Below, piece by piece: positions 28,634 to 62,082 of a stretch of DNA of 64,000 bases. Positions within the stretch are counted from its first letter, which is position 1; every line of letters begins with the position of its first letter. Source of the DNA: Umbelopsis ramanniana AG (lineage: Eukaryota > Mucoromycota > Umbelopsidomycetes > Umbelopsidales > Umbelopsidaceae); contig NW_026252112.1 of assembly GCF_025399195.1 (NCBI RefSeq), positions 62,001 through 126,000 on the forward strand, given 5' to 3'. A program made the translations under genes and the position numbers. The notes beneath the pieces are model-generated. The model searched no databases. It was not told the DNA's origin and saw only the letters and a list, made by a program, of their open reading frames with translations.

Positions 28634-28706
28634 TCTCTGTTAGCTCAGTTGGTAGAGCGTTCGGCTTTTAACCGAAATGTCCAGGGTTCGACCCCCTGAC
28701 AGAGAG
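28634..28706 (+). tRNA. tRNA-Lys (UUU), left end of inverted repeat
   Basis: A complete cloverleaf can be folded: 7-bp acceptor stem (TCTCTGT with ACAGAGA), D stem GCTC/GAGC, anticodon stem TTCGG/CCGAA around the loop CTTTTAA (anticodon TTT), variable loop ATGTC, and T stem CAGGG/CCCTG around TTCGACC, then a G discriminator. No intron. A T6 run at 28708-28713 is a Pol III terminator. It is identical over all 72 stem-and-loop positions to the minus-strand copy at 37717-37789 and forms the outermost part of the left arm. Confidence 0.95.
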
Positions 28707-28782
28707 ATTTTTTATTGGTCAATAAAAATATTATATTCAATTTCCATTGGCTAATATTTTTTATTTCCATCGCTTCCATTGG

Positions 28783-28962
28783 NNNNNNNNNNNNNNNNNN
28801 NNNNNNNNNNNNNNNNNNNNNNNNNNNNNNNNNNNNNNNNNNNNNNNNNNNNNNNNNNNNNNNNNNNNNNNNNNNNNNNNNNNNNNNNNNNNNNNNNNNN
28901 NNNNNNNNNNNNNNNNNNNNNNNNNNNNNNNNNNNNNNNNNNNNNNNNNNNNNNNNNNNNNN
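28783..28962. other. Assembly gap, 180 N
   Basis: 180 undetermined bases lie between two copies of the AT-rich repeat. The corresponding part of the right arm (37463-37641) is 179 bp and holds a decayed tRNA-Lys copy, so the gap probably hides the mirror image of that segment. Confidence 0.95.
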
Positions 28963-30662
28963 AAAATATTATATTCAATTTCCATTGGCTAATATTTTTT
29001 ATTTCCATCGCTTCCATTGGCTACTGTAGTTTTGCTCGAGAAATTTTGTCGCAGCAGCTGCCGCTGCTGCTTTATCATTTTTTAAATTGATTGCTGTATC
29101 TTTATTACTTTAGTTTTTGATTGTAGTAGCATTTTTTCTTGAGCTTCTTATATCTAAATTTTTCTAATGGATGAAAATTTGCTTATGCCATACAAGCCTA
29201 AGCTTTTTTGCGCTGTTCTTGTGATCCACATAGTAACCTCCAACAAATCTCGTTACTGCCCTTTAAAAAGTTTCGAAGGAAATGACCGTAAACTTCACGG
29301 ATTCAAAGATAATTTGCAGAAGAAAATTATATACATTTCTCCATAGGCCAAAAAAAAAGAAAACAGAATTTCTGCTCTCGTCCACGTAAAGCTATCAAAG
29401 GGTAATTTGTAATACCAGCACTTTTGCTATAACCCGGATGGCATCCGATGTGCTCAACAAATTATTTATGAAAGTAGAAAAAGAAACTTTGATTACATTT
29501 GGAGTAGAAATATTAGTGAAATGAAAACTTGATAGGATTCAGAAACACAACAATGGAGTATGTGACGAAGGTTCAGTAACCGCATTATGAAAAAGAAAAT
29601 TTCTACTATCATGAGGACACTGTTTTTATACCTTCTAAAATTTTCACTCAAATCCATATATAATTATCAAGCTCATTCTATTTTGTATTCTAACTTTTCA
29701 AACAGCAGCCTTCTAAGCTAGGGAACAACGATCGACTTCCGATGAAATAGAGGTCGAGACAGTTGTGATTTAATGAAATGCAGTTGTATTTTCTAAGCGG
29801 TGAGTAATGTAATATGTGGCATTTAGAACAAATAGATTAGCATAGACGAGCCAGAAGACTACGAAATTTCATCGGCCACCTTAATATCAAATTCTAAGCA
29901 TAGAACAATCACTGTAAATGTCAAAGCAGCACGGTCGCTGATTCGATTTTAATTCAATGTATTTGGGCCAAAATTTTTCCTTGGAATGGTCATGGGAGAC
30001 TAGGATAACGCCTTCCCAAGGTGTACAATTGCAACGGCCGACTGCAAATTTTATAGAATTGCATCAGAGCACTGCATAAACCGATCAGATCAAAGCGTCT
30101 AGTCAGCCAACTCAGTTGGACCGAGAAAAGAAGACCAGTTTTAGAATGCAAGAGTTGATTGATTCAACGCTAATTAGTCGCAGAAAAGCAAAGATAGAGC
30201 AAGCAAAATTTCAACACTACAACGTCTACATACCTAAAAATCTCGTTATACCCAAGTCTCATTTATTCTACCACCTATTATTCCTTGACTACCATTTCTC
30301 GAGCTCGGATTAAAAGCGACCACTGTTTTAGTGTCTAATGAAAGCATTGCGACATATGTGAAAGTTCTCTACATACGTTGGTAATGAGTGCTTGTTACCT
30401 ACTTATTATGGATTGAATGGCCATTTAAATTTGGAAAGAATGCTAGATAGGTTGTCAAAACATTAAAAGTCTTCTGTTACGTATAAATGTGCTCATTAAG
30501 CATGGAGCTGGTATAGTCATTTAGAAAGCAGGCATACCTCATCTAGCCAGAACGGCATGGTGGTGTTCTCCTGCACGACAAAATCCCTCACAGAGTTTGG
30601 ATGCACCGCCGACAGCCTGATATACACAAGACAGCAACATGCTATGTATTTAAATCTGAGAA

Positions 30663-31345
30663 ATAGACACTTTTCATCCATTTGTCAACTGCCGGGAAAA
30701 AGGAATCTGGAGTAAAGCTCTCCAAGAACTACTGCCTAGAGAGGACATCGACTTGCTAACCAAGGTAAAGCAACTACTTTTGCTATCTGATAGTAAGAGC
30801 ATCTGAACGCCTTCTAGAAAGCAGATACTATCAGCAATTGGGCTCATTTTGGTATCAAAACGGAAGCTCCACTGGAAAAGCTGTATTGAGGACAAGAGAT
30901 GGGTTCCAGATGCATGTATCTGGACCATACGGCGCAACAGATGGCGTTGGTTAATGCAGCTACAACTTGAAGTGGTGCCCGAAGTGGACCAAAATGTGCT
31001 CATTGCCATTACAACGTCCTATATCCCTGAATTGGAAGAGCTTAGAGTAACGTCTTACGCGCGCAAAGACGAAATACAAGATTTCCGTAGATATGGCACA
31101 ACGCTACGAAAAGTATATATACCCGATACCCCATGTATGTGTCAAAGTGGATCATACCGTACCATCATGGCTAAATAGCTCTCTTTGGCATCTGAGTTGG
31201 CAGCTTTGAACTTCCCTTTCCTACCTTTCTAGTTTTGTGTTTTCCGTTTTTTTTCCGTCAATTTCTGTACCTTTTGTTCCTGAATTTGTAAACTTATCTG
31301 CTTCGCAAATAGCTGAATAAAACGTGAAAAAAAAAAAAAAAAAAA
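30663..31345 (+). pseudogene. Degraded gene fragment ending in genomic poly(A)
   Basis: A plus-strand coding remnant in more than one frame: about 30663-30777 reads IWSKALQELLPREDIDLL, about 30818-30888 reads NWAHFGIKTEAPLEKLY, and 30849-31178 reads to SYIPELEELRVTSYA and LRKVYIPDTP. The last part resembles a leucine-rich-repeat/F-box type protein, though weakly. It is followed by AATAAA (about 31316-31321) and, a few bases later, an uninterrupted A19 run (31327-31345). This suggests a retrocopied or decayed gene; intron status is unclear because a possible GT-AG pair exists between the first two pieces. Confidence 0.35.
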
Positions 31346-32746
31346 CTGTTACGCATACAGGTCGGCTGCACTAGTTACGAACAAGTTAAAATGTCTTTCA
31401 CATACACTTGGGGAAAAAAGATTTGTTGTAGAGCTTAGCCTTTCATTAGATGGATGGATAATGCTCAGCAATAACTGTTTGATATGAAAACCAGATTGGT
31501 ATGGAACAAGTGGTTGAGATACGAGCTGGAGACGGGCGATATATGGAATTTCACTATGCTTTCACCGACTTATTCAATGATTTAGCGTAGCTTATTTAGA
31601 TGTACTTGATAGTGAAATGGCCGATTTATTTTCGTTTCTGCTAGTCATGGATTTTGGTAATGCATAACGGGGGTTTTTTTTTCTTCAAAAGAGTCGTGAT
31701 TTATTTCAATGTGAAGTATAGGTCTCAAAATTTGTGAGATAGACTATGCTAACTTATGGGGGTATGAAGATGCGAGGGCGATTGATATAGACAGTGTCAT
31801 TAGACCACTCCTACCACTCCTTTCCTCAGCCATTTTCTCTTTTCTTTTTTTCTTTTTGCGTCGTCTTGTATTCTTGTTGACAGGGTGTGTCACAATGACT
31901 CCACCAATTGCTCATAAGTCAGTCTGTCTTGCTCCTCCTCGCGGAAGACAAATTTCCAGTGGCAGCGCCAGACGGTCGCTATGGCCCTACTTAATATGAT
32001 TACGCTGGAGGGGTTGCGGTTTAGGCTTATCTTGCTCCATAGAAACTGGAAACCTTCTACAACGTTTTGTGAGGTCAACCACCTTCTTGGACTCGGAAGA
32101 TCTTTATCAAGTCATATATTAAAGAGAGTCAGGGTGTATTGCCAGAATCGATTCTTGGGTGGGCTGGTAATGCATAACAAGTTACAAAGTAATTTTGTTT
32201 ATAACGCTTGAAGAGGACGATAAATAATAATACTAGGCATGCGTTACAGTGGCGGTTGAAAATCACACAGCTTTCCAGTAACTGATATTTCAAGCTCACC
32301 GGCTCCCATTGCGAAATGCTTTGCCATCTACAGATTTAGCCTTTATGGTCACTGCAGCTGATGACATACTGATTTATTTCACTACTAGTCATGGCTGGCT
32401 CTCTTTTATGTGTCGCGATCAAACCTTCCCCATGTCACAATCGCACCGTCATCTTTTGACAAAAATTCATGATTGGCCTATAAGGTATATATTCAACTGC
32501 TATCAGGTTAATATCTGATAGTTTTCGCCCTCCAAACTTCACGGGAAGCGCCTCTACCGTTTTTCCGCCTCTAATTAAGCATTGGCCAAAATGGCGCCAT
32601 AGTGAGGCCTCGTGGCACTCCACTATTTTCGTTACATTAGGCTCCGCTTCGAAGGATCTGCCACTGAAGGTATAGGCCAGATTTCAATGTTCCGGATTTT
32701 GCCGCGATCTGACCTCCTTGACCATTGCCAGAAGCAAGCTTGCTCA

Positions 32747-32842
32747 GCTAACTTTAACGACTTGAAAATTTAACGCACTTCTGTGGTACACACGGCTAAC
32801 TTTAACGACTTGAAAAAGTCAACGCACTTCTGTGGTACACAG
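32747..32842. repeat. 48-bp tandem duplication (two units)
   Basis: Two adjacent copies of a unit beginning GCTAACTTTAACGACTTGAA and ending CTTCTGTGGTACACA; period 48, with a few mismatches in the middle. It lies in the non-coding interior of the inverted-repeat element. Confidence 0.85.
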
Positions 32843-34218
32843 CGGCCAAATAAGACAATGCAATTTCTGTAAGTCACCAACAGTAGATTAACGATCTGTA
32901 TCCACAACGTATAATGTACTGTGTAAAAATATTATAAATGACTGACTTACATTTCTATTGTAACAAGTATTCATTGGTGTGCTCAAGTAGTTGAATACTC
33001 CGATTTGCGAGGATAGCTTGGTCAATAAAACTCCATTGGTTATAGTTTCTTCCTAAATGCAATCAACGATGGAATATACAACAGTGTTTTCCTTCGATTG
33101 ATGAAATGCTTGAGTAGTGTTACTGAAGAACACGGCGTTGCAATAGCTAGAAAAGAGTCGAAAGTATGGACTTGGATCGGATATCAAGGCTGCTAAACAT
33201 GATGCGGACAGGCTTGTTCCAAGCCCGACATGCCAAATTACAGGTTCAAGAGCTCAGCCAGATCAAGTAGCAAGTATGAAGAATTTCTGTTGATAGCAAT
33301 TCGACAATAGCCACTACTTGTAATTGAAAGAATAAAGAAAAGGGGACTCCTTTTACTTCGTCTAAAATTATCACCCTTCATAAGAAATTTTATCCACAAG
33401 TAGCTTACTTTTAGCAATGTCAAAGAGCAGCTAGCAATCCCATATTGTGTTCGTGAATTCGGTGTGCTAATGTGGGCTGCTTACTAATATTACTGTCGAC
33501 GTTCATTATATGCGATGCTTTTTTCATTGGCAGTCGAGCAATCTACATCACAAGGGATGTGGTTTTTGAGTTTAAATGGTGTCATACAAAGTTACACATC
33601 AAGCCTGGCCAGGAATTATCGTTCTGGAAGCTACAGAATTTGTCGTTCGAACAAAGAAACTTTTTTTTTTTACATATCATTTTCGAAAGGTTTTATCAAC
33701 AAATGAAGCTCCTAGTTACTCTGCTACCGGTTTATGAAGCATTTCGTTCTTGTGTGATTGTGTCAAGAGAAAAGCTCGTTGAAAAAAGCGGGGCATGCTG
33801 AATTTCTTTTTAAAAAATAAGCGTTGGAAGTGGCGCCATTACACAGAAATTTCGAAAAGAGCACAACGGTTCTCGTTGTAGTCAAGCCATACACCCGTAT
33901 TTCACAGGTCATACCTTGCAAGGTTACATCTTGCCACTTGATTCCTTTTTTTTATTACATCTTTAGACAAACAGCGCGCCTCGGTCTTCTAATCAGGTCA
34001 TTCGGCTGGCTGCTTTTAGTAGGGTAATAACGCTGACCTCGTAAAGTAATTTACATGCATACATTCCTTTCAAACGAGGAAACAAGTGTACTGAATGACT
34101 CCGTCGACTTCCTTGTATAGCTCATGTTAATTTGACTTCGTACCTTCTCAGCCTCGAACTGTCCCATTTTTGTCTCTGGCTGGATGGATGTTTTGCCGCT
34201 CTAGCGGATGGACAACGG

Positions 34219-34228
34219 TATATATAAA
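34219..34228 (+). promoter_or_regulatory. TATA box of the GIY-YIG gene
   Basis: TATATATAAA, 40 bp before the ATG at 34268. Its position and quality are unusual compared with the core genes of this window, which have no clear TATA box. It also shows that the in-frame ATG at 34208 lies upstream of the promoter and is not the start. Confidence 0.7.
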
Positions 34229-34267
34229 GCATCAAAGTACGCTTTTTTGCAAGTTAACTTTCCCGCA

Positions 34268-36860
34268 ATGTCAGCGCTCAACATTCAAAACTACCTTCAA
34301 GCTTATGCAACCTGGTTTGCTATGAACCCCATCTTTATCAACCATGGATTCCAACTGTTGAGAAGGCATCTAAATCTGGATACATCCAACAATGTCCATC
34401 TTCACTTTCTGTCAGACGCTAGTCATCAAATTGACATGAGGAACTGCGTAGACCTGGTTTACATCAAGATTTGGTGCAATGATCTGGTCCCTACTGCAAA
34501 CCCATTGACTATGGATCTTCCGGAAGGCGCAAGGGTGTACATTGGACAAACCGCCAATCCACGGGCCAGGGAACATGCTTTGCAACCTTATATCTCGGCT
34601 TTTGGAGTTCCTACACTTCATTTGTGTGTTGCCCATAATTTGTCCCAGTACCATCGTGATGCCCTGGAATGTGCCATAATAGCTTGGTTCACATTGTTTC
34701 TTGGACTGGCTGTCTTGAATAAGTCTCCTTATGGAAACTACATCTACCGAGAAGTAAATCCAAATGCTACTGTTGATGAGATATTGCCAAGTGACTATCG
34801 TGCGGTTCATTCCTTCAGCAACTGGAGGCTCACGATTGTCGTTGGTACAGCTCCTCCCGCCGGCGTAGCGTTGGCGGCAGCATATCGAGACAGAATGGAG
34901 CGACATCCGCTCATGAATTGGGACGCGTTTCCTAATACCGGGTTGGGGATGTTACGATTCAATCTAGTTCAATATGCTCTTCCTCCTTTCATCAATCACT
35001 ATCCTGATGATGTAAGTCGAGGCATTGACGACTGGTATCCGCATTTTGATCAAGAAAAAGTCAATAACGCTGATCGAAACTTAAAGCAATCTATGAGGGA
35101 ACACTCCAGACCAATTGCTCTCATGCTCGGTGCTAGACCGACACGACTTGTTGACGGTAGCCTCCGTAACAACTTCATGAGTGACCGATGCGGACGGCTG
35201 AATTTCTCGCGCCTGAATTCTGGTCGCTTCATTGCCATGCTGTGGATGCCCGATCCTAGCCACTACAGACACTTCAGGCTCCAAGACAAGATGTTCGGCG
35301 TTGAGCTGTACACATTAGCTAGCAAAGCGATTTACACCCTTGAAGAGAAATTCTTATCGGGACGTGATGGACGGGCTGATGAGCAGGATGACTTTGGTTT
35401 TACCAGCCTTGAAGTTGAAATGCTACAGTTTTGGTGGGATTCTCATCCACTTTGTGCCAAGATAAGGCAGCTATGTCTCAAAGTGGCATTAATCCCTACA
35501 TCTTACAAAACAGCATGGACCGGCACCTTACCTGTAGTGAATACTGGCTTGTTTGGTAAATTTGAATAATAGACTTTTGAAAAATAGAAGAAAGGACTAA
35601 CATTTTCAACAATATATAGATTCGGTTCCCACGAATTTATGGTCAACTTTGCCAACAACCTACGTCGATATCGACATGTTAACCATTCCGGGAGACACAT
35701 CCTTATATGTAGATAAAACTGAGGAAGGCTTGACACTGGTATGTTATCACATAGAGTAGCAAGTCTGTTAAATAGCGAATCAAAAGTATAACCATTTTTA
35801 ATAGCCCACAGATACGCTTGTTTTGTCTGGGAGACAGGATCAAAGTGACGAGCCAGCTACAGTGTCTATCGAAGGTACCATACGGCATGATACAAGAATC
35901 ATCCGTATGGCTACCCGAGATAATCCCAATTTTTCGGTTTTGTCTACTGCTGAGCAAGTCCAAGTTGTTCGACGAGCCATCGGTCAGTATGCGCGAATTT
36001 TGAACGTTGGTTTCAAGGATAAACGCATTGCCGAAGGACACTTTCATCCTCTGCCTGATGAACCTGAAGATGTTCAAGTCGCTAGGTCCAGGCGCGAATA
36101 CTACGACCAGCAAAGCCACACCATCAGGGGAAATCAATTTTTGTCAACTTGTTCCTTATGTAACTTCCACTTGCCGGCAAGAACATATACAAGAAACAGG
36201 AGTATCTTATTTTCCTCTGGATGCCTCTGCGGTCGGACACGTTTCATAGAGGGCTGTCATTTTGTCCAAGGGCAGATTCCACTGAAAACGTTTCCGGATA
36301 ACAATGTCTTCATCCACCACATAATGCATCTGCCGGTACCACTTGTTATAAATCACAAACAGCTTGTGGTCTCGGTGATCGACTTTCTAGAAACTGAAGG
36401 AACAACTTACTTTCAGTCTCAAGCTCAGCCGATCATCGAGATATATGGCGCTGTCTTTGCAAATTACAAAGCGTATCGAAACCAGGAAAAAGAACACAAA
36501 ACTCTGTCGACGGCTTTTTCACGCATGGTGAACCAATTGTACAGAGATTTGAGAACTATAACTGGATTCGAAACAATTGGCCCTAGATCCACCTCTCGTG
36601 CTCCTAAACCGATCGAGAGAGCTGCTTACGGAACTGGCACGCCAAACAAGTTCACTCTTTATTCATTTGGTGCGTTGACAGAGGGTTCGCTGGAAGAAGT
36701 TGCAACCACGGAAATGGAGACATTGGAAGACATGGATTTTTGCCAGTATGGAAGTCGCCTGACGGAGCTAGCGCAGCAAAAGAGAGCTGAAAGAGACGCA
36801 GCTGCTGGTGGATCTGGACAAGCTGAAGGATCTGGAAGAGCAGGTCCGTCTGGATCATAA
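34268..36860 (+). CDS. GIY-YIG nuclease-like protein of the inverted-repeat element
   Basis: Three exons (34268-35555, 35620-35738, 35805-36860) give 820 residues; both introns are GT-AG and keep phase. The N-terminal domain fits the GIY-YIG endonuclease fold: LVYIKI (63-68) as first strand, then VYIGQTANPRAREH with YIG at 91-93, the conserved Arg at 101 and His at 103, the metal-binding Glu at 134 in DALECAIIAWF, and the closing LN at 150-151. The middle is of normal globular composition but unrecognised. The C-terminal third has a cysteine-rich patch (CSLCNF and GCLCGRTRF with HF), possibly zinc-binding, and ends in a Gly/Ser-rich tail. A TATA box precedes it and AATAAA lies 17 bp after the stop. 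It appears intact and expressible. A nuclease role is inferred from motifs; the family is not one I can name. Confidence 0.8.
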
Positions 36861-36876
36861 CTATCACTTGTTTCAA

Positions 36877-36882
36877 AATAAA
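36877..36882 (+). terminator. Poly(A) signal of the GIY-YIG gene
   Basis: AATAAA, 17 bp after the TAA stop at 36858-36860; typical distance for a compact fungal 3' UTR. Confidence 0.55.
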
Positions 36883-37191
36883 ATACAATGTATTATTTGC
36901 CAACAAGCTTGTAGCTGAAATTTAGAAATTCTCGTTAGTCTAGCAGTCGAAATACGATGAGCATCAATTGTAGTGGAAAAAAAAAATCATTTTTGGTGTG
37001 GACAACATCAGAACCCGCGCAATTTTTTGAGGTGACGCGATAGAGTTATCAGTTGAGAATAGTCATGCATTCTAATTTAATCTATAATATAGAAAGTAGT
37101 TATTTCGACTCTCTTCTACTAGGTGAGTAAAGTCAGTTCCATTTCATAAGACAATATGGAATTAATTCGAGATAGTAAGCTTCGAGGTTTT
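36883..37191. other. Gene-free spacer before the right inverted arm
   Basis: About 300 bp of AT-rich sequence with no gene. From about 37135 weak reverse similarity to 29232-29270 can be followed, probably the decayed continuation of the arm. Confidence 0.45.
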
Positions 37192-37481
37192 TGTGTAGAT
37201 CATAAGAGCAGCGCAAAAAAAGCTTAGACTTGTATGGCATAAGAAAATTTTCATCCATTAGAAAAATTTAGATATAAGAAGCTCAAGAAAAAATGCTACT
37301 ACCATTAAAAACTAAAGTAATAAAGATACAGCAATCAATTTAAAAAATGATAAAGCAGCAGCGGCAGCTGCTGCGACAAAATTTCTCGAGCAAAACTACA
37401 GTAGCCAATGGAAGCGATGGAAATAAAAAATATTAGCCAATGGAAATTGAATATAATATTTTTATTGACCAATAAAAAATC

Positions 37482-37545
37482 TCTCTGTCAGGGGGTCGAG
37501 CCGTGGCATTTCGAAAGTTAAAAGCCGACGCAATAGAAAGACAGT
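37482..37545 (-). pseudogene. Decayed tRNA-Lys copy
   Basis: The 3' half still matches the intact gene (TCTCTGTCAGGGGGTCGA on the plus strand), the anticodon region is altered (TTCGAAAGTTAAAAGCCGA), and the 5' half with D arm and acceptor strand is lost. A cloverleaf cannot form. It sits in the same place within the inner cassette as the intact tRNA in the outer cassette. Confidence 0.85.
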
Positions 37546-37716
37546 TAATCATAAATGGGACTGAATAAAAATGAAAATAGATAGGTTAGATGCAAAAGCG
37601 ACGACTGCTGCGACAAAATTTCTCGAGCAAAACTACAGTAGCCAATGGAAGCGATGGAAATAAAAAATATTAGCCAATGGAAATTGAATATAATATTTTT
37701 ATTGACCAATAAAAAA

Positions 37717-37789
37717 CTCTCTGTCAGGGGGTCGAACCCTGGACATTTCGGTTAAAAGCCGAACGCTCTACCAACTGAGCTAACAGAGA
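37717..37789 (-). tRNA. tRNA-Lys (UUU), right end of inverted repeat
   Basis: Identical to the plus-strand tRNA-Lys at 28634-28706, with intact acceptor, D, anticodon (TTT) and T stems, G discriminator and a T6 Pol III terminator at 37711-37716 on the minus strand. It points inward, as does the left copy. Confidence 0.95.
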
Positions 37790-59417: not shown

Positions 59418-62082
59418 GACTGAGGCAAGAAGAAAGACGTAAGTTTGGGTGAAAGATAAATACCAATCAATGTATGCAACATCATATAAAAATTTACGAA
59501 GTTTGGCGAATTGCAACACACCCATCAACCCGAAACCACCTTTACAGCAAGTGTGTTTACAACAACGAACCTTGGATGAAGACTGGTTTTGCTGATCTTA
59601 TTCGTTGTCAAGAAAATATAAAATGAGTGTATCCACTTATTGCATAGCAAAGAAGGTTAAGAAACAGAAGAGTAAAGGAAAGTAAGAGAGAAAGATGAAG
59701 AATGACTTTTTTGAAATAACAGATGGGCAATTATAGATATTTGTCCGAGCCCAAATAAAAAAGACTAGTTGTCGAACAAAATTGGCCATTGTAGTATTTT
59801 GTACTTATCGGCGAAGAGTTTACCGGCGAAACGTACATACAGCTCTATCGCTTTGCTCGTGCTACGGAGATTATTATTACAGAACCCGTAACATTATCAC
59901 TTTGACGCTTTCTCCACTTGACGTGTTAGAGTTGTTTGTTGACACAAGCAGATTATCACTGACAAAAAAATTCTCCTGCTCTTTAACTGTACTTATGGTC
60001 TCTAACGTCCACGACTACATTCACATCCTTTTGGTTTCAACGTGCGGAAAAACCTGGAAAGAAACACAGATCAAGAATGGCTGCAGTGATACCAACATCG
60101 TTCACTCATACCGTGAATTTAGGTTTTTTATTTGTTAGGTTCACTTGCCAAGTGGGCGGCTGGGTGGGTGAGGACGATATACCAACTCAATCCTCAGGTG
60201 CGGTCAAGGTTGAAACACAAGACAAGAAAAAAAATGTATTTTTATGTTCTATACCTGTTTCTTTACCTTTCAAGAGGTCATGGTGACCCCTATGCACGAT
60301 GTGCTAAGGATGTCATGCCTTTATTCTTGTATCCTGTTTTTCCGAATTATCTTGCTTTGTTGCAAATTATTTGACCGCTTTAAAAACGCAATGCAATGCG
60401 CTGCATCCAGTATTTGTGTGATGAACTGACGGTTTGGCTGTGGTCTGTATACAAGTTTTGTTCGCGCATTTAGTTTTTATCAAACATCTTTAAATTTCTG
60501 AGGTAACTCTAGCAAAACTCAAAACAGTAGATTTGTTATCTCCCGTATTTAAAAAATACTATCAGACAAATTTGATGCGTATTATTTGTCAAGGAAAACC
60601 CTTTGCACACGCTTATCGATCAAGTCTACCATGGTAAGTGTAGTTGAAGTTGCATACCGTGATGGTCATAGAATATGATGACCTGCTACCAGAAAGCTAA
60701 AATGGAAAGTACAACATACTTGTATCTAATAAACAGTGTTTAGTACTTTTCAGGCACGATGATAAGCTCTGACAGTGGTCATCTTGATGCCCGTACATAT
60801 CACTTCTTGCTGAATGGAAAACCAGCACAAATCTTGTACAATGATTTGTGAGAACCAGTCGTGGCGATATCCTCCAACAAACTATCTCAGTAATGTGTTC
60901 ACTTGCAAACAGCTGCTGTAGAGCCACAGCATTCAACCCTCTGCCATGTTCTATTTTTAAAGCTGCGAAAGTGAACGTTTCCTCTCCCAGATCACAGTGC
61001 CTTTAAAGTAGGCATCCATTGAAATGCTTGTGAGCATATGCAGGGCACGGCATAGTGCAAAAGGTGAAAGAGCAGTCGTTGTAGACAGCGATGGAATAGC
61101 ACTGATGGTTTACGATGAAGTGGCATAAAGTGCTTAATCCTCTAGCTGCGTATTTTCCTTTCCCTTTAGCTTCAGTATGTACGCTATAGCTGACATCTTC
61201 GACTTGAATATCAGCTATCAGAAATTGAATTTAGACAGCCTTGCTGCGGTGGCCAAAGATTCTGCCTCATAAGTCTAAGGCTCCTCTTACCAACATTGCC
61301 TTGCAAAGTTGAATCAAATGTCCCCGTTAGTAAATATTACTTACACAAAGCATCGGGCCAATTCAGAAAGACCTCACAACAAGTCTCCGTATAATGCCAA
61401 CTCTTGCACCTTGCCACACCTACCAGGTGACCTTCTCCTCCAATGTGGTTTTCGTCCGATTCCCCCCGTTTGCAGCTATGTAGACTTGTATGCGTCGTCA
61501 ATCCCATAGCGGTCGGTGCATGTTTTTGATTCCATCACACAGCTCAAAGTCAACCCGGGTACAGGTTTCTCCATCGGTAGCTACTCCGATGTAGGGATTC
61601 TGACCTTTCGACGTAACCTAATTTGCAATCGGTGGGCCAGGTAATTCATACTGCGATACCACGCTCTGCACCACCCAAAAAATGTCTGGTCATCCATCCA
61701 ATTCCATTGCAAGGCAAACTCTCCATATAGACGGGAACACATGTACATTTATAGTAATGCTGTGGGAGGAATAAAAAAAAAAAAAGAAGGGTAACTGAAA
61801 AGTAACAATCAACAGCGTTGGGGTCTAGAAGAGAATAAAGAGAAAAAGACAGAATAAGTCTATTACCTTGTTTGCCAGTATGTATCATTAAGATAATCCC
61901 ACAAAATGCAAAAAGAAAAACGATAATCTACAAAGAAGAAGCGAGAGCGAAGAAGTACGAGGGGTAGCGCGCAAAACTTGGGAAAAAAAAAGAGGAGGAC
62001 GGGCGGGGGGTCCTTTCTAATTGTATGTAAGAGTTGAAATGGGTGGGTGGTGATATGGTGTTGTATGTTGGTAGACCTCTTT
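59418..62082. other. 2.7-kb gene-free stretch
   Basis: No supportable gene or RNA. Open frames at 59782-60138, 60077-60286 and 61309-61509 have no family features, splice logic or codon bias. The left part probably holds the promoter of the membrane-protein gene; the right end has the 3' UTR of the uridylyltransferase. Confidence 0.5.

Follow-up and report, generated by a model that had tools for sequence, protein, structure and literature searches.

An inverted pair of tRNA-Lys genes

The 64,000-nucleotide stretch of DNA analysed here (positions 62,001 to 126,000 of contig NW_026252112.1 in Umbelopsis ramanniana AG assembly GCF_025399195.1; hereafter the window, on a contig referred to as C26) contains two transfer RNA (tRNA) genes for tRNA-Lys(UUU) that form the outer ends of two inverted arms around a protein-coding gene. 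Both were identified by ARAGORN and Rfam, the left copy at 28634-28706 on the plus strand and the right copy at 37717-37789 on the minus strand. They lie about 9 kb apart, face each other and are identical at 73 of 73 bases. The arms to which they belong occupy 28634-29239 on the plus strand and 37185-37789 on the minus strand, and are thus about 605 bp long. Their outer ends coincide with the 5´ ends of the tRNA genes (28634 and 37789; blastn extends the match 2 bases further). Their inner limits lie at about 29239-29243 on the left and 37181-37185 on the right, similarity having faded by 29243 and 37181, respectively. A previous sequence-only reading of the window had described inverted arms of about 598 bp that begin exactly at the 5´ ends of identical, inward-reading tRNA-Lys(UUU) genes. 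The coordinates and the identity of the two genes confirm that description.

A genome-wide search for this tRNA sequence returned two full copies, both at the locus, and no third, although it missed tRNA-Lys(CTT) genes that were matched by local comparison and could likewise miss a diverged tRNA-Lys(UUU) gene elsewhere. Since only two full copies were found, the block, if it were an element, would carry the apparent host supply of this tRNA. The arms have a guanine-plus-cytosine (GC) content of 30-33%, against 44% for the window as a whole. One defining feature of a DNA transposon, terminal inverted repeats, is present in the form of the arms. The 3´ flank of the tRNA genes (28709-28782 and 37642-37715) contains several CCAAT/ATTGG motifs, recognised by eye, and a 20-bp near-palindrome immediately behind the tRNA.

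A gradient of divergence along the arms

The two arms differ at 10 of 425 gap-free compared bases, a comparison from which two single-base indels, near 28707 and near 29203, were left out. The first 304 bases from the tRNA end contain no mismatch, the next 85 contain four and the innermost 36 contain six, which bears out the sequence-only description of arms that are almost identical near the tRNA and diverge inward. The uneven placement is not readily obtained by chance: the mean position of the mismatches was reached by none of 100,000 permutations, and a Fisher test of the innermost 36 bases versus the rest gave P = 4e-5, with the cut at 29204 set after the alignment had been seen.

An outside reference for these differences is available in the same genome. 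On another contig, C11, a decayed partial copy of the gene region (C11:209778-214537) can be aligned to the arms from 28996 to 29243. Over four successive segments the left and right arms differ from each other by 0, 3, 5 and 17%. The corresponding figures against the C11 copy are 19, 17, 28 and 23% for the left arm and 19, 16, 34 and 10% for the right arm. Every segment of each arm is thus 10-34% away from the C11 copy, and the gradient seen between the arms is not repeated towards it. In the innermost 40 columns, the left and right arms differ at 7, the left arm and the C11 copy at 9, and the right arm and the C11 copy at 4 positions. Because the gradient exists between left and right without a counterpart towards C11, the arms are best understood as an old duplication that has been homogenised from the tRNA end. 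From these comparisons of sequence, we infer gene conversion as the homogenising process and an old age for the duplication.

The pairing of like tRNA genes is common in this genome. Among 63 tRNAs scored (of 1036 candidates), with the bit score used as type label, 21 pairs, whatever their type, are at most 25 kb apart and nine of these share the anticodon, compared with 0.84 expected when the labels are shuffled among the fixed tRNA positions. Nine same-type pairs were reached in none of 20,000 shuffles. A group of tRNAs at 61.3 bits was split by hand according to E-value and length, and agreement of the anticodons was confirmed in all nine pairs. They are found on C10, C26, C3, C4, C32, C47 and C50, and six of the nine are inverted. 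By eye, five other pair regions that were inspected contain open reading frames (ORFs) of at least 130 codons between the tRNAs. Also by eye, an ORF within the C47 pair and another next to the tRNA-Gln pair on C10 resemble fragments of a retrotransposon integrase. Outside the latter pair there is a 417-bp inverted match of 74% (C10:366554-366970 and 392180-392596), a larger local inverted duplication.

The gene between the arms

The enclosed gene, modelled by eye and by script, has three exons on the plus strand at 34268-35555, 35619-35738 and 35805-36860, the last of which includes the stop codon. The spliced model encodes 820 amino acids without an internal stop and is 100% identical across its full length to the deposited protein K450DRAFT_280490, which has 840 amino acids and is thus 20 longer. 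That the arms enclose a real gene, as the sequence-only reading had stated, is therefore clear, but its designation as GIY-YIG nuclease-like was not confirmed. The label goes back to a short VYIGQT motif in exon 1 that looks GIY-YIG-like to the eye and has no profile support: neither the 820-residue protein at E ≤ 10 nor the 840-residue protein at E ≤ 1 had any Pfam match, the GIY-YIG profile PF01541 included. Fungi normally have a GIY-YIG protein, Slx1. For this reason a search of the whole genome with PF01541, which returned no candidate, is a weak negative.

Other searches were similarly unproductive. Neither the protein nor its two long ORFs matched anything in Pfam, NCBIfam or PHROGs, and viral contigs yielded no relative. 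A sequence search of the PDB with six aligned homologues returned 12 sequences of ribosomal proteins, none with an E-value better than 0.034. Residues 51-170, covered by four of the six aligned sequences, scored 15.3 against eight phage T4 domains, a value equalled in 6 of 100 column shuffles. The AlphaFold model has a mean predicted local distance difference test (pLDDT) score of 33 and is too poor for the fold to be judged. Across the interior, Pfam found no domain in the enclosed gene or in seven further ORFs of at least 80 amino acids (nine interior ORFs in all), in agreement with the sequence-only reading, which had recognised no transposase, integrase or reverse transcriptase there; an enzyme of an unrecognised kind may nevertheless be encoded among these ORFs.

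Relatives of the protein were sought with a 453-residue piece, a search that did not reach proteins above about 793 amino acids, and then with the full 820 residues; each search scored the 7,998 candidates that shared most words with the query. Together they returned seven distinct proteins including the window's own, and the other named sources are all Umbelopsis. In Umbelopsis sp. AD052, the homologue of the gene and that of its right neighbour are both on contigs of 453,870 bases, and in a further record named U. ramanniana both are on contigs of 927,910 bases. We take contigs of equal size within each of these genomes to be the same contig, which would link the gene to its right neighbour in both. 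Roughly one quarter of this protein differs between the two U. ramanniana records (the other record's is 74-75% identical to that of the window), and because of this difference the name U. ramanniana may cover two species.

Origin of the arrangement

The locus is probably not a mobile element but an inverted duplication of a tRNA gene on either side of a resident gene, its two copies kept similar by gene conversion. A host tRNA-Lys(UUU) gene, together with some 0.5 kb of 3´ flank, would have been duplicated in inverted orientation, so as to lie on either side of the gene, and gene conversion would keep both arms nearly identical from the tRNA end as their inner ends drift apart. The interval itself would, by inference, not move. 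We favour duplication with conversion because of the gradient of divergence together with the habit of this genome to place tRNA genes of the same type next to each other. The sequence-only reading had offered an inverted duplication of a tRNA locus with gene conversion as its alternative, and the arm gradient and the same-type pairs now speak for it.

Local duplicates of tRNA genes are typically identical or nearly so, often inverted and some kb apart. Compared with the other eight such pairs in the genome, where the common blocks measure only 78-113 bp in all, the block described here is unusual in reaching 0.5 kb into the 3´ flank. A known parallel at the level of protein-coding genes is the flip/flop region of Saccharomyces, in which two inverted, homogenised stretches are reported to lie likewise some kb apart around resident genes (PMC9731477). 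As in that region, recombination between the inverted stretches could flip the interval. The Saccharomyces case differs in that it concerns a protein-coding family over a 24-kb region, as opposed to a tRNA gene and its 3´ flank over 9 kb. In the portions of the literature covered by our search, nothing was found concerning the present locus.

Several observations weigh against a duplication without mobility. No other tRNA pair in the genome has arms as long as 0.6 kb. The gene region also occurs on C11, as the decayed partial copy with stop codons. In the other U. ramanniana record, a contig of 2,558,276 bases carries a second copy, a partial one, whose predicted protein starts with a weak match to Helitron_like_N (E = 0.00028, below the curated cut-off). 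Equal contig sizes give neither the distance between the gene and its right neighbour nor the presence of the arms. Finally, U. vinacea has a listed homologue of the right neighbour, on a contig of 866,302 bases, and none of the 820-residue protein among the 7,998 candidates scored. The gene may have been lost there, it may have escaped annotation, or the site may be empty; of all the results, this one favours an element the most.

The sequence-only reading had preferred an element directed to tRNA-Lys genes by nuclease cutting, after which the tRNA is restored. Such an element would have the 0.6-kb arms ending in tRNA-Lys as its terminal inverted repeats, would be inserted by the nuclease of the enclosed gene, and would have the tRNA rebuilt at each end. 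Apart from the further copies of this region that two genomes contain and the result from U. vinacea, it is suggested by the position of the gene inside the block and by the sharpness of the outer edges at the 5´ ends of the tRNAs; yet such edges are not special, being seen also in the Gly pair on C3 and the Arg pair on C47. We nevertheless hold it to be very unlikely. A target-site duplication was not found: at the exact outer edges no identical letters occur for k = 2-7, and the longest word common to the two outer-edge vicinities is 5 bases. Searches for further copies returned the decayed C11 block and the Umbelopsis homologues of the protein, and no other copy ending at a tRNA. The C11 block, apart from which this genome yielded no related block, has a single arm that breaks off before its tRNA end, at window position 37429, and the surrounding 20 kb yielded no tRNA. 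At the sensitivity of the search, no other copies of the arms were found in the genome, with or without a tRNA end. Pfam detected no transposase or other recombinase in the nine interior ORFs, and the gene appears to keep its neighbour in two other Umbelopsis genomes. Similarly slim are the chances of a fossil or domesticated Umbelopsis element, in which the 820-residue protein, with its VYIG-like motif and no membership of any family searched, once helped to copy the region, as on C11 and at the second place in the other Umbelopsis record, and the tRNA-ended arms are the termini. If the block did turn out to move, it would represent a kind of tRNA-ended element that is not known to us.

Without gene conversion, the arms could stem from a single, recent inverted duplication, of which the inner ends are the frayed edge. 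The outer 389 compared bases, with only 4 mismatches, would fit such an event, but the alignment of both arms with the C11 copy extends into the innermost 40 columns, and there the two arms are roughly as far from one another as they are from C11. The mismatches are also unevenly placed; we consider a recent event improbable. The fission yeast centromere offers a different precedent, as tRNA genes there lie within the inverted imr repeats that flank a core. A centromere-like unit of this type, with a core between inverted repeats and tRNA genes acting as chromatin boundaries, would account for the inverted arms with their terminal tRNA genes and for the low GC content of the arms relative to the window. 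It differs from the present locus in that the core here is not gene-free, and the gene that it holds is intact and has homologues elsewhere in Umbelopsis. Coding neighbours are also close outside, with ORFs at about 0.6 kb on the left and at about 0.9 kb, with homologues, on the right, and other tRNA pairs in the genome enclose ORFs of at least 130 codons as well. A centromeric role is, in our estimation, barely credible. The gene-conversion explanation for a duplicated tRNA gene has two wider implications. Local inverted duplication of a tRNA gene can produce a structure that looks like a tRNA-ended element, and the nine same-type pairs, six of them inverted, would lend themselves to measurements of the distance over which gene conversion spreads from tRNA genes.

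Repeats in the arms and the interior

A run of 180 N at 28783-28962 leaves part of the left arm unread. In the right arm, a 125-bp tandem repeat on the minus strand has an inner copy at 37355-37479 and an outer copy at 37592-37716 that are 96% alike, and between them, at 37481-37528 on the same strand, lies a 3´ fragment of tRNA-Lys (tRNA positions 28-73, 88%). The left arm probably has this tandem repeat as well, concealed by the Ns, because the spacing of a 58-bp marker is nearly equal in the two arms, 237 in the right and, measured over the Ns, 238 in the left.

On the plus strand, 30490-31346 contains old remains of a dispersed repeat with a poly(A) run at their end, and the part from 30916 on is also present in the C11 copy. 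A nested, retroposon-like insertion of about 497 bp (31669-32165) is bounded by a 13-bp direct repeat (31656-31668 and 32166-32178) and is absent from the C11 copy. Because the C11 copy shares the poly(A) fragment near 31346 and lacks the insertion, the two copies probably parted before the insertion took place. Relatives of the insertion are found on C66, C84, C105, C51, C37 and C27. Fragments of the interior repeats occur on at least nine contigs besides C26 and C11, on each of these nine at most about 5.1 kb from a contig end. These positions were noted as a possible sign of a subtelomeric element, but no TTAGGG arrays were found in the nine loci, only six of which reach the contig end. It is more likely that the assembly broke at a dispersed retroelement, since one of the nine (C66:3091-6586) reads by eye as a reverse transcriptase of the long interspersed nuclear element (LINE) type.

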